Source: Subtercola boreus (GTDB lineage: Bacteria > Actinomycetota > Actinomycetes > Actinomycetales > Microbacteriaceae). Taken from it: DNA of 64,000 bases. Shown piece by piece: positions 23,802-28,211 of the stretch. Location of the stretch: assembly GCF_006716115.1 (NCBI RefSeq), contig NZ_VFOO01000001.1, positions 806,001-870,000 of the forward strand, in the 5' to 3' direction. Within the stretch, counting starts at the first letter, position 1; every line of letters starts with the position of its first letter. Position numbers and translations under genes: made by a program. Under the pieces are notes generated by a model. The model saw only the letters and a list, made by a program, of their open reading frames with translations. It searched no databases and was not told the origin of the DNA.

Positions 23802-23833
23802 AGCTAGCAGCTGCAAGCAGCCAGCTGCTAGCT
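23802..23833. terminator. Perfect 12-bp hairpin overlapping the end of the response regulator gene
   Basis: agctagcagctg (23802-23813) pairs with cagctgctagct (23822-23833) around an eight-base loop, in a run of degenerate cagctgcca-like repeats from 23787. The minus-strand stop codon (23828-23830) is inside the right arm. It lies between converging genes. Confidence 0.75.
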
Positions 23834-24523
23834 GTGCGGCTCCGCCGACACGTCGGAGTTCGTGAGGTAGTCGTCCTGGATGAGCAGCCCGTCCTGGATG
23901 GCGCGCTTCCGGAGGGCGACCTTCGTGCCGACATCGATGCCGAGCACGCGGTACTTCTCCCTGATGCGCTTCAGGTAGCTCTTCGCGGTCTCCTCGGAGA
24001 TGCTGAGCTGCTCGGCGACCTGCTTGACCGGCTCGCCCCCACCGTAGAGAGCCATCACGCGCCGCTCCTGGGCGCTCAGCTTGGGGGAGCCGTTGACCTC
24101 CTGTGCGCTGAGCGCCAGGTCGAGTTCGCTCGAGATGAACGGTTCGCCCTTCGCGGCCGAGCGGATCGCCTCGACGATCATGTCGGCCTCCTCGCTCTTC
24201 ACGAGGTAGCCGAGGGCTCCGGCCGCGAGGGCCTCACGCACTACGACGGGCTCCGAGTAGGTGCTCATCAGCACCGTCTTCACTCCGGCGGACTTGAGGG
24301 CCCGCAGCTTGACCGAGATCGGCAGGTTGTCCTTCAGGTCGAGGTCGAGCAGCACGACGTCGACGGGGAACTCGGGGTTCGTCAGCAGGTCGGGCCACGT
24401 GGTGACGGCGGCGACCATGTTGATGTCGCTCGCGGCACCGCGGATCCACTCTGTGAGAGCTCCGAGGAGCATGCGGTGGTCATCGACAATCGCCAATCGG
24501 ATGTTCTCATGCGTCGTCGTCAT
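23828..24523 (-). CDS. NarL/LuxR-family response regulator
   Basis: A 231-residue two-component regulator. The receiver domain has the acidic pair D14-D15, the phospho-acceptor D60 in LLDLDL, the conserved Ser in MSTYSEP and the Lys in YLVKSEE. The C-terminal LuxR-type helix-turn-helix (LSAQERRVMALYGGGEPVKQVAEQLSIS...) binds DNA. ATG 24523 has a GGAAGG ribosome site seven bases upstream; an ATG seven codons earlier does not. It lies 34 bases after the membrane protein and two genes after its probable kinase, so the three act together. Confidence 0.93.
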   Translation of the reverse strand: MTTTHENIRLAIVDDHRMLLGALTEWIRGAASDINMVAAVTTWPDLLTNPEFPVDVVLLDLDLKDNLPISVKLRALKSAGVKTVLMSTYSEPVVVREALAAGALGYLVKSEEADMIVEAIRSAAKGEPFISSELDLALSAQEVNGSPKLSAQERRVMALYGGGEPVKQVAEQLSISEETAKSYLKRIREKYRVLGIDVGTKVALRKRAIQDGLLIQDDYLTNSDVSAEPHS

Positions 24524-24557
24524 GGTCGGGCCTTCCCACTGCATCGCTCGGAGGGTT

Positions 24558-25835
24558 CTACGATTCGGGGGAATGCACCTCGGCGGTGATCCGGATGTCG
24601 GTCACGCCGTTCCTGCTGCTCTCCGAGTGCTGCCCCACCCGATCCAGCGCCCCCCAGATCGTCACATCGAAGCGTCGGCGGGGAATGCCGGCGATCGAAA
24701 TGTTCATCGGAATCCCCATCATATCGCTAGGGACCCCCCGGTCGGGGTCCAGTACAGGGCCGATCGTCACGGTGATGGCGGGTTGCTGGCGGGTGGGCGC
24801 TGCGGCGATGAGCCAGACGGCCGAGAGGAAGCCCTCGCGCTGGTCGGCTTCGAGGTAGCCGGCCAGTCCGTCGGGGTCGACCAGGGTCACGGTGGGGCGG
24901 AGCACATCCGAACCGTCGACGGCGTGCTGCAGCCACGTCTGCAGGCGGTCCTCGATGAGCCGGCGGCGCAGCTCGTTCGCCAGTGACGATGCGGCGGAGG
25001 CCTGTCCGGCATCCAGCGGCAGCGGGATGCGCCCCGACGCGACATCCGAGAGCAACTCTTCAGCACTCCTGTCGAGGCGCACCAGCTCGTCGGAGCCGAG
25101 GATGCCCACAGCGTACCGCGGCGAGGACAGGGTGCTCTCGACCAGCGTCCGGTCGAGCTCCCTGTCGATGAAGCGGGTGAACGACTTGACGATGAGGATC
25201 GCGATCAGCGTGGGTGCGATGGCCGCGACGATCACTTCGATCTGGGGCCGGCTGGCCACGGGGTCTTCACCCACACCGACGATGGTCACGGAGAGCAGGA
25301 AGACGACCAGTACCACGGTGGCCAGGATGAGTTGGTTCAGCGGCCGGTAGGCCACCAGCGCGAGCAGGGTCGCGCCCGCGCCCACGATGACCGTCACCTC
25401 CGGAGTGGACTCCGTGAAGCCGTGCGTCGACACCAGATCGAGAACCACCGCCGCGGCCACGAGCAGCAGCACTCCGATGAAGGCCGGTGTCGGCAGCCGG
25501 CCGCCCTTGCTGTTGGCGATGATGCAGCCCAGGGCCATCGCGGCGGCGACCAGGGCCCAGGCCCCCGCCGTCAGCCACGGATTCGTGTAGGAGCCCCAGT
25601 TCAGGGCGAAGACGGCGATTCCCCGGATGCTCAGCAGGATGCCTGCGACGATGGCGCCGATCCCGAGGTACCCGATGCCGATGCGGGAGTCGGTCGCCAT
25701 GTCGCGCCGCAGCGATTCGATCGCTTCGGGGCCGAGCGTGCGGGCGCGCACCAGCCGGGTGAGCAGGCCCATCCCCTGGTCGTCGGCCTCGAGCCCCGGG
25801 CCTGCGCCCTGTGCCGGGCGGGTGGGATCGCTCAT
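24558..25835 (-). CDS. Multi-pass membrane protein of a two-component operon, function unknown
   Basis: A 425-residue protein not matched to a family I know. It has a short N-terminal cytoplasmic part, about seven hydrophobic helices between residues 55 and 225, and a cytoplasmic C-terminal region of roughly 190 residues that has a helical LANELRRRLIEDRLQTWLQHAVD segment and then a beta-rich part (PTVTLVDPDG, AITVTIGP, FDVTIWGAL). No kinase, HAMP or cyclase motif is visible. Its ATG overlaps the histidine kinase stop by four bases and the response regulator follows, so it is likely a third component, perhaps a sensor or accessory of the kinase. Confidence 0.8.
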   Translation of the reverse strand: MSDPTRPAQGAGPGLEADDQGMGLLTRLVRARTLGPEAIESLRRDMATDSRIGIGYLGIGAIVAGILLSIRGIAVFALNWGSYTNPWLTAGAWALVAAAMALGCIIANSKGGRLPTPAFIGVLLLVAAAVVLDLVSTHGFTESTPEVTVIVGAGATLLALVAYRPLNQLILATVVLVVFLLSVTIVGVGEDPVASRPQIEVIVAAIAPTLIAILIVKSFTRFIDRELDRTLVESTLSSPRYAVGILGSDELVRLDRSAEELLSDVASGRIPLPLDAGQASAASSLANELRRRLIEDRLQTWLQHAVDGSDVLRPTVTLVDPDGLAGYLEADQREGFLSAVWLIAAAPTRQQPAITVTIGPVLDPDRGVPSDMMGIPMNISIAGIPRRRFDVTIWGALDRVGQHSESSRNGVTDIRITAEVHSPES

Positions 25836-26977
25836 CGGGGAACCTCGAGCACGACGGTCGTCCCGGCACCGGGCGCAGAGAAGATGCGGGTGGTGCCCCC
25901 GACGTCCCTGATGCGCGCGACGACCGACTCGGCCAGGCCGAGCCGAGCCGGGTCGACCCCGTCCGTCTCGAATCCGACGCCCGAGTCCGTGACCATTGCG
26001 CGCACTCCACCCGCGTCCTGGGTGATCGTCACGTCTGCTTCGTCCACCTGGGCGTGCCTCCTGACGTTCTCGAGGCACTCGCCGAGGGAGAGCAGGAAGG
26101 CGCTCCGCACGTGCGGGGGCAGTGTGACATCGCCATCGCCGTGCCAGTGCACCTGGAGTCCGCGCCGTTTGAAGCGCTGCTGCAGCGCCTTGATGCTCTG
26201 CGTGACCGGTGGGGCCTGGTCGGTGCGGAGGTTGTAGGTTCCGGATGACCGGGGTATCGGTGTCTCGCCGTGGCGGAGCTGGCGCAGCAGAACGGCGTCG
26301 TCGCTGGCCTGCACGCGGAGGGCGTCGGGATCCACTCCCCGGCCGGAGTGCGCGAGCAGGGTCAGGGTCGCGAGCACGGTGTCGTGCAGGAGCCGGGCGC
26401 TCCGCCGGCGTTGCGCTTCGAGTTCGCTCGCCCACCGCTCAGCACGGTGCACGGCGCCGAGCCGGGCGATCCGGTCACGGGCGCGTCGCACACTGTCGGT
26501 GATCCAGATTCCGACGATGACGTTCACCGTCCAGCTGACGAGGAAGATCGCGAGGGCCTGCACGGCCTCATCGGAGGTCATCGACGACAGCGCGATCGTC
26601 AGGTTGACGAGGAACGCGGCGGCCAGGTAGAACCGTCCGGAGAGCGACCCCTGCAGAACGATCGCCAGCGCCCCGATCCCGCCACCGGAGACGAGCAGGA
26701 GCGCGCTCAGAACGGCGGCATGATCGACCACAACACTGCCGAGGAGAGCGCCGACCGCCAGGCCGGCCACCGTGACCACCACGATCCAGAGGGTGGCCGA
26801 CGAGCGCCCGATCATCACGTACCCGGCGAGCATCACCGCATAGAGCGGGAGTCCGAGAGCGAGGACGTGTCCAGGGATCCCCCCGGCGATCAGCAGGCAG
26901 ACCAGCGAGGAGAGGGTGAAGACCCAGCCCTCCACCCACGCAGCGGTTCGCAACAGTGGTTCCTGGCGCCTGATCAC
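25832..26977 (-). CDS. Membrane histidine kinase of the NarL-partner (HisKA_3-like) type
   Basis: A 381-residue kinase with about six membrane helices (residues 12-165), an amphipathic linker, a histidine box LLHDTVLATLTLLAHSG, and an HATPase domain with the N box GECLENVRRHA, G1 VTDSGVGF and a final GTTVVLEVP. The extracytoplasmic loops are short, so it probably senses a membrane signal. The GTG start follows TAGGAT by seven bases. The gene begins 28 bases after metX; it may be read from that transcript as well as from its own promoter. The membrane protein gene overlaps its stop. Confidence 0.9.
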   Translation of the reverse strand: MIRRQEPLLRTAAWVEGWVFTLSSLVCLLIAGGIPGHVLALGLPLYAVMLAGYVMIGRSSATLWIVVVTVAGLAVGALLGSVVVDHAAVLSALLLVSGGGIGALAIVLQGSLSGRFYLAAAFLVNLTIALSSMTSDEAVQALAIFLVSWTVNVIVGIWITDSVRRARDRIARLGAVHRAERWASELEAQRRRSARLLHDTVLATLTLLAHSGRGVDPDALRVQASDDAVLLRQLRHGETPIPRSSGTYNLRTDQAPPVTQSIKALQQRFKRRGLQVHWHGDGDVTLPPHVRSAFLLSLGECLENVRRHAQVDEADVTITQDAGGVRAMVTDSGVGFETDGVDPARLGLAESVVARIRDVGGTTRIFSAPGAGTTVVLEVPR

Positions 26978-27005: not shown

Positions 27006-28211
27006 TCAGAGCGCGAGGAGCCGGCGCAGTTCCCGGCTCACCAGCTCGTCTTCGATGAGGAACCCGTCGTGTCCGAACCGTGAGGAGATCACCGTCGCGT
27101 CGTCCCCGTCGATGTTGCCGGGGATGTGCCGGGCGATGACCTGCTGGTCCTCCACCGGGAAGAGTCGGTCGCTGTCGATGCCTATCACGAGCGAGACGGC
27201 GCTGACCGTCCGGAGCGCCTCGACGACTCCGCCCCGTCCGCGCCCGACGTCGTGCGAACTCATCGCCTCGACCAGCGTGATGTAGGCATTCGCGTCGAAC
27301 CGGCGGGTGAACTTGTTGCCGTGGAAGTCGAGGTACGACTCCACCGCGAACCGTCCGCCCCGCCCGAGCGGGCTGATGCCGCTCTGCCAGCTGCGTTCGA
27401 ACCGGTCGTTCAGCTCGGTGGGGCTCCGGTAGTTCAGCAGGGCCATCCGCCGGGCGAGGGCCAGGCCGGAGTGCGGTCCCTCCCCGTCTGTGGCGTTGTA
27501 GTAGCTGCCGTCGTGGAAGAGCGGATCCGCCCGGATCGCTTCGATCTGCACCGAGTTGAGCGCGATCTGGTCAGCGCTCGAGATCGGCGGGGCAGCGATC
27601 ATGGCGAGCTTCTCGGAGAGAGCCGGGAACATGGCGCCCCACTCCAGCACCTGCATTCCGCCCATCGATCCGCCGACGATCGCGGCCCAGCGCCGGATGC
27701 CGAGCTGGCGCATCACCCGCTCCTGCGCCGTGACCTGGTCGCGGATGCTGGTGAACGGGAACCGGCTGCCCCATTCCTCCCCGTCAGGCGCGATCGAGGC
27801 GGGACCTGTCGAGCCCTGGCAGCTGCCCAGCATGTTGGGTGCGACCACGAAGAACCGGTCGGTGTCGATCGCGAGTCCGGGCCCCACGATCCCGCCCCAC
27901 CAGCCGGCTGTCGGATGCCCGGGCTCGGCCGGTCCCGCCAGGTGGCTGTCTCCCGTGAGGGCGTGCGCCACGAGCACCGCATTGTCGGCGGCCCCGTTCA
28001 GCGTTCCGAACGTCTCGAAGGCGATCCGGGCATCCGGAACCGTGCCGCCGGCCTCGAACGTGATGTCGCCGATGTGCGCGAACTGCCGGCGCCCCACCGG
28101 GTCGCCGTCCCGCCAGGCCCCGGTCGCCGGCGGCTTGCCGAGGATCGACCGGATCTGCGCGTCGGTGATGAAATCGCTCGGAACGGTGTCTTCGGGTATC
28201 TGCCAGTCCAT
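27006..28211 (-). CDS. metX: Homoserine O-acetyltransferase
   Basis: An alpha/beta-hydrolase of 401 residues that acetylates homoserine for methionine synthesis. The nucleophile elbow GGSMGGMQVLEW, NMLGSCQGSTGP, the acid in IGIDSDRLFP and the catalytic histidine in SRFGHDGFL are all there. It lies downstream of metY on the same strand, separated by a hairpin. The product O-acetylhomoserine is the MetY substrate. Homoserine comes from the Hom enzyme encoded at 50716. Confidence 0.96.
   Translation of the reverse strand: MDWQIPEDTVPSDFITDAQIRSILGKPPATGAWRDGDPVGRRQFAHIGDITFEAGGTVPDARIAFETFGTLNGAADNAVLVAHALTGDSHLAGPAEPGHPTAGWWGGIVGPGLAIDTDRFFVVAPNMLGSCQGSTGPASIAPDGEEWGSRFPFTSIRDQVTAQERVMRQLGIRRWAAIVGGSMGGMQVLEWGAMFPALSEKLAMIAAPPISSADQIALNSVQIEAIRADPLFHDGSYYNATDGEGPHSGLALARRMALLNYRSPTELNDRFERSWQSGISPLGRGGRFAVESYLDFHGNKFTRRFDANAYITLVEAMSSHDVGRGRGGVVEALRTVSAVSLVIGIDSDRLFPVEDQQVIARHIPGNIDGDDATVISSRFGHDGFLIEDELVSRELRRLLAL

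Follow-up and report, generated by a model that had tools for sequence, protein, structure and literature searches.

Within a 64,000-nucleotide stretch of the Subtercola boreus genome (the window; positions 806,001 to 870,000 of contig NZ_VFOO01000001.1, assembly GCF_006716115.1), three consecutive genes on the minus strand encode, in this order, a sensor histidine kinase, a membrane protein and a LuxR-type response regulator (Table 1). This trio, and above all its second product, which we call the middle protein, is our subject. The open reading frames (ORFs) of the kinase and the middle protein overlap by four bases, the regulator begins with an ATG at 24523, 34 bases past the stop of the middle gene, and the kinase starts 28 bases past the stop (27006) of a metX-like gene. 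Checking the sequence again gave the same figures and confirmed the three-gene layout of a preliminary description of this DNA.

Table 1. Features of the three-gene locus and of the gene upstream of it, in positions of the window
Feature	Position	Strand	Basis
Sensor histidine kinase, NarL/DesK type, six membrane segments	25832..26977	-	Pfam HATPase_c, motif counts in homologues, hydropathy
Kinase HD box H198 (26384-26386); N-box N304; G1 box D331xGxG	within 25832..26977	-	
Middle membrane protein, 425 residues, predicted pseudo-histidine kinase	24558..25835	-	AF2 model, GHKL fold, missing catalytic residues
Membrane region of middle protein, residues 52-219, six segments	25179..25682	-	Hydropathy and model helices
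DHp-like helical hairpin of middle protein, residues 248-297	24945..25094	-	Model helices 248-266 and 276-297
D255 of middle protein	25071-25073	-	Would occupy the kinase histidine position if the favoured register is right
Degenerate catalytic (GHKL) domain of middle protein, residues 312-421	24573..24902	-	Model, fold matches, residue counts
NarL/LuxR-type response regulator, D60 phospho-acceptor (24344-24346)	23828..24523	-	Pfam Response_reg and GerE
metX-like gene, directly upstream of kinase	27006..28211	-	ORF; name carried over from the preliminary description

The trio recurs well beyond this genome. Relatives of the middle protein were found in 27 of 60 near genomes, namely 27 among the 37 same-family genomes listed and 0 of the 23 near genomes of other families. 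Across the phylum they occurred in three of 396 genomes, all three Microbacteriaceae, and within that family in 206 of the 299 sampled genomes and 58 of 85 genera, so that at the sensitivity used the middle protein appears restricted to Microbacteriaceae. When loci were anchored on the middle gene, a kinase adjoined it in 30/30 and a regulator match lay within short flanks in 28/30 (divergently in L002); the two loci lacking such a match (L029 and L030) are second copies. When they were anchored on the regulator (the best 80 of 419 loci), all three genes were present in 80/80, as they were in 20/20 further genomes picked from many genera. In fact, even the exact four-base overlap of kinase and middle genes is kept in 27 of the 30 middle-anchored and 74 of the 80 regulator-anchored loci. 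Because this overlap recurs and the three genes stand together in every regulator-anchored locus, the arrangement is more than chance.

The reverse comparison agrees. We found 93 genomes without the middle gene and tested 20 of them for the kinase; none of the 20 gave a kinase match above 98.4 bits, that is, an orthologous kinase, and all six control genomes carrying the middle gene gave matches of 398-537 bits. This strict co-occurrence supports a dedicated three-gene signalling module conserved in Microbacteriaceae. The preliminary description had already grouped the genes as one module, and a middle protein living mostly without kinase and regulator, which would speak against such a grouping, was not seen across these genomes.

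Judged by their motifs, the outer two genes encode familiar proteins. The first product has the HATPase domain, HD box, N-box and DxGxG motif of a NarL/DesK-type sensor histidine kinase: Pfam HATPase_c scores 33.7 bits against a curated cut-off of 26.4, the HD box H198/D199 is present in 99 of 101 aligned homologues, and N304, D331, G333 and G335 in all 101 (alignment A2 plus the kinases of the 80 loci, identical sequences removed). By hydropathy the kinase also has six hydrophobic membrane segments of its own. The third product has the acidic pair, phospho-acceptor aspartate, lysine and LuxR helix-turn-helix of a NarL/FixJ response regulator, with Pfam scores of 41 bits for Response_reg and 38.7 bits for GerE, and with D14, D15, D60 and K109 invariant in 20/20 aligned sequences. 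It shares 96-98% identity with the regulators in three Subtercola boreus records.

The middle protein is less easily placed. No Pfam or NCBIfam model matched it up to E 1, and scans of 62 middle proteins, with matches listed up to E 1, showed no kinase model and only scattered other ones: MASE3 in 5/62 (best E 0.00099), DUF2070 in 3/62, and Bax1-I in 1/62 with the lowest E-value, 0.00019. A sequence search of the PDB with the middle-protein profile likewise found nothing meaningful (best E 0.22). Thus the preliminary description, which saw no recognised motif in the beta-rich domain, stands at the level of sequence models; the predicted fold of that domain is nonetheless recognisable, as GHKL without catalytic residues. 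A full-length AlphaFold (AF2) model built from 62 sequences has a mean predicted local distance difference test score (pLDDT) of 84.7 and shows a membrane part with six helices, of which one is short, a hairpin at residues 248-297 and an alpha/beta domain reaching to residue 421. Hydropathy also gives six membrane segments, which replaces the earlier estimate of about seven helices. Profile search and structure prediction, both suggested earlier for the C-terminal half, thus had opposite outcomes, the former yielding no model and the latter a fold. Modelled alone (pLDDT 83.3), that half was compared with known structures by VIA-align 2, and 50/50 listed rows were histidine kinases or domains derived from them (Z 8.2-9.8; in most rows 104-121 residues align at 2.7-4 Angstrom), among them HprS, PhoQ, DosS, VanS, VraS, DesK, ChpT and phytochromes. 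With the full-length model, kinase rows were present too, interspersed with rows in which designed helical proteins or other structures match the membrane part. We therefore predict a GHKL fold for the C-terminal half, on the strength of the model and of the consistency of its match list.

What this predicted domain lacks is the chemistry of a kinase. The HD box occurs in 0/77 middle proteins against 99/101 kinases, and the C-terminal half contains a D.G.G pattern, at whatever position, in 2/77 (the Subtercola boreus protein itself not among them) against 101/101; a regular N-box or G1 box is likewise missing. For these counts we combined alignments A4 and A1 and removed identical sequences. 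A4 has 62 rows, the Subtercola boreus protein included, from the 64 of 80 loci left once near-duplicates at 88% identity were removed, and leaves out L037, L087 and L101 for their odd or late starts (A5 additionally leaves out L077); A1 has 24 rows, six of its 30 loci being left out. An active histidine kinase was set aside on the absence of the HD box from all 77 proteins and of the G1 motif DxGxG from all but two. Even so, D255, E259 and R333 are identical in 77/77, and W301, W341, W394 and G401 are kept in 75 or 76 of 77, so the protein looks selected rather than decaying. It is best explained as a predicted pseudo-histidine kinase.

Kinase ancestry could also have produced a phosphotransferase. 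ChpT is such a protein and is one of the structures matched (4fmt, Z 8.9, root-mean-square deviation 2.7, 105 aligned residues), and a middle protein of this kind might pass phosphate through an unusually placed histidine, H304, which is kept in 72/77 sequences. Since the other five carry I, N or L at this position, since D255 stands at the expected place in 77/77 under the favoured register and no HD box occurs in any of the 77, and since a NarL-type kinase and regulator have no need of a relay, we consider such a role highly improbable.

How the predicted pseudokinase may be related to kinases became clearer through a second family. A weak match to the middle profile in the same genome (C1:2361885, E 1.3e-4), adjoining a kinase match, led us to a related family, which we call family B (P0004). 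The middle family matches family B with E 2.8e-9 and a score of 74.7 (37.0 for the reversed profile, 21.1 for the best of 25 shuffles), and with E 1.3e-7 when another pair of alignments is used. Family B in turn matches the kinase family of the Subtercola locus (E 1e-6; score 55.5, against 21.1 on reversal and at most 21.0 in 25 shuffles) and its own neighbouring kinases (E 4.8e-7); loci L162, L164, L172 and L173 are left out of the family-B comparison set. The C-terminal parts of the middle protein and family B score 22.1 by themselves (reached by 0/25 shuffles, best 18.5; reversed 13.3), which means that the membrane part supplies much of the full-length score. Compared directly at full length, middle and kinase profiles score 37.3; none of 40 shuffles comes above 25.1, and the reversed profile gives 25.2. 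On these scores the middle protein is a putative homologue of the kinases: the indirect route that runs via family B gives a strong link, and the direct comparison of C-terminal halves, given below, stays at chance level. With D255, given the favoured alignment register, the phospho-acceptor histidine would be replaced by an aspartate. An earlier register, which laid hairpin helix 1 on DHp helix 2 of the kinase, was dropped when family B and the fused protein described below implied another, a choice that we regard as tentative.

Family B keeps the same company as the middle protein, adjoining a kinase in 30/30 loci, and is spread more widely: it occurs in 31 of 60 related genomes, some of them from other families of the order, and 13 of the 396 phylum genomes have it, five of these belonging to another family of the class. 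In the Subtercola genome itself, an 812-residue ORF (L127:2628-5066, minus strand; C1:750130-752565) joins in one chain a kinase, a further membrane region and a degenerate, B-like kinase half. Its kinase part carries the HD box and the DxGxG motif, its B-like half matches P0004 by BLASTP (E 3e-12), and a LuxR-type regulator gene lies beside it. Elsewhere in the genome, a regulator, a kinase and a family-B pseudokinase follow one another in overlapping order (L126:3256-6198, around C1:2361258), and a second copy of the set, again with a four-base kinase/middle overlap, has its regulator divergent (L131:4840-8031, around C1:137887). With the window set and the fused chain, the genome thus holds four sets of kinase, pseudokinase and regulator. 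Fusion in one chain is ordinary evidence that separately encoded relatives work jointly.

The same relatives bear on a quite different reading, in which the middle protein is an accessory membrane protein of the LiaF/VraT kind, unrelated to kinases, that inhibits its kinase. The gene logic is the same: LiaFSR and VraTSR also combine a kinase, a regulator and a membrane accessory protein, and their kinases and regulators are of the NarL/LuxR type. To our knowledge, LiaF is not a kinase-fold protein. The abstract of PMC3543457 describes it as regulating LiaRS negatively. We give this reading very little credence, given the absence of a LiaF-type profile from the listed Pfam and NCBIfam matches of 62 members up to E 1, the predicted GHKL fold of the C-terminal half and the fusion of relatives to a kinase.

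To explain these observations (the computed gene order and co-occurrence, the complete motifs of kinase and regulator, the predicted fold of the middle protein and its missing residues), we propose that the trio is probably a three-component system, in which a complete kinase is bound and tuned by a degenerate membrane partner of kinase descent and works with a LuxR-type regulator. Gene 1 encodes a sensor kinase of the NarL/DesK type that is catalytically complete and has six membrane segments. Gene 2 would be a diverged relative of such kinases that has kept the six-segment layout as well as a DHp-like hairpin, now shortened, and a GHKL domain and has lost the phospho-acceptor histidine, the N-box and the G1 box. 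In the membrane, this protein may form a complex with the kinase and set the balance of the latter between kinase and phosphatase activity, whether by activation or by inhibition; that the two bind each other, which way the effect goes, what the signal is and which genes are targets are matters of inference. The kinase would autophosphorylate at H198 and the phosphate would then pass to D60 of the regulator. Autophosphorylation on histidine and transfer to a regulator aspartate are the established chemistry of these two families.

Rates of evolution offer some further support. In the 72 of 80 loci compared, the middle protein had a mean distance of 0.824, ahead of the kinase (0.593), metX (0.357), the regulator (0.194) and metY (0.179), and is the fastest-evolving of the five. 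The correlation between kinase and middle distances is 0.857 and becomes 0.784 once metX and metY are removed, a value reached by 0/999 label permutations. Several observations nevertheless weigh against a kinase-derived, co-adapted partner. The middle/metX correlation is still 0.622 after removal of metY, which leaves the kinase/middle partial correlation supportive, not decisive, and a statistic of this kind cannot tell co-adaptation from rate effects common to the genes. When the C-terminal profile of the middle protein is set against that of the kinase, the score is 18.1, a value reached by 2/40 shuffles and exceeded by the reversed profile (19.6), that is, not above chance, and we discarded this comparison as support. 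Middle profiles barely exceed reversal against the family-B kinases (34.6 vs 33.2). Finally, Foldseek is weaker than VIA-align 2, with just two E-values below 0.001, both to plant phytochrome A, followed by DesK at 3e-3 and, among the weaker rows, phage tail terminators.

Fast evolution is often seen with sensors, and the preliminary description had left it open whether the middle protein is a dedicated sensor or a modulator. As a sensor, it would bind the signal with its membrane half and dock through its degenerate kinase half on a kinase that senses little itself. The six membrane segments in both proteins suit such a division of labour, and so does the precedent of FasB and FasC, two kinase-like proteins between which the role is split (as far as the available text of PMC12675982 goes). 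The kinase has a complete set of six segments itself, however, and either of the two proteins might bind a ligand. A predicted GHKL domain without catalytic residues makes modulation the leading reading, and we hold the sensor reading to be a real, clearly less probable alternative, kept alive by a six-segment layout like that of the kinase.

Pseudokinase partners are already known; strict pairing, the missing family model and the fused relative distinguish the trio. Like FasBCA of Streptococcus pyogenes, it brings together two six-segment kinase-like membrane proteins and one regulator in one locus, and the kinase and regulator families of FasBCA are different ones. Like DivL-CckA and RetS-GacS, it would have a kinase-like protein tune another kinase, and those pairs are encoded by separate genes with other domain make-up. 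The AbrC1/AbrC2/AbrC3 system has one response regulator, and rocA is located outside the covRS operon; the Subtercola genes, unlike those of RocA and CovRS, overlap and co-occur strictly. In the accessible text of PMC12675982, which also mentions the RetS-GacS heterodimer, FasB and FasC form a heterodimer of two six-segment kinase-like proteins with one regulator, each partner having dispensable domains, and FasC retains H246 as the likely phosphorylation site, unlike the middle protein with its HD box in 0/77. RocA is described in excerpts of PMC7028121 as a membrane pseudokinase with six putative transmembrane domains and DHp and CA domains that acts through CovS; its predicted H246 is dispensable, whereas the middle protein has no HD box at all. 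The AbrC1 and AbrC2 proteins of Streptomyces coelicolor, an atypical actinobacterial system, are both histidine kinases according to the part of PMC4428217 available, whereas one of the two Subtercola partners is degenerate. DivL is called a pseudo-histidine kinase in the portion of PMC9430884 at hand. By analogy, the trio might work like FasBCA and RocA/CovRS; we claim membership in neither.

The literature that we searched on signalling in Actinobacteria, Microbacteriaceae and Subtercola did not contain the system, most subscription journals lying outside the search. A membrane protein that no family model covers and that occurs in more than two hundred of the sampled Microbacteriaceae genomes (206/299) can now be tested as a predicted pseudokinase, and an arrangement of kinase and dead kinase comes to light four times in one genome, once fused. 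We envision, tentatively and with more doubt than for the trio itself, that obligate kinase:pseudokinase receptors form a class so far unrecognised in Actinobacteria, encoded by overlapping tandem genes or fused, in which the dead partner is needed for signalling and each receptor has its own LuxR-type regulator. Should the partner prove necessary, half of these receptors escape ordinary two-component annotation. The fused 812-residue form would be a simple object for the study of structure and mechanism.

The neighbourhood of the trio is conserved as well. A metX gene lies upstream of the kinase in 76 of the 80 loci, the remaining four ending at contig edges, and in 20/20 further genomes, and within the 80-locus set the gap shrinks to as little as 15 bases. 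The module might on this ground belong to methionine control, sensing or regulating methionine supply through co-transcription with metY-metX. The adjacency proposed earlier is in fact old and near-constant, but a role in methionine supply does not follow from it: genes on the other flank of the trio, unrelated to it, are also kept in most of the 80 loci, so the block seems simply stable and shows no methionine function, and in 26/80 loci another response-regulator gene intervenes between metX and the kinase (for example L047:4501-5176). We thus regard methionine control as unlikely. This second regulator gene is absent from the Subtercola window; in the genera that have it, two regulators may be served by a single kinase pair. 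In at least two loci (L084:4395-5250 and L053), a possible secreted lipoprotein gene lies between the second regulator and the kinase.

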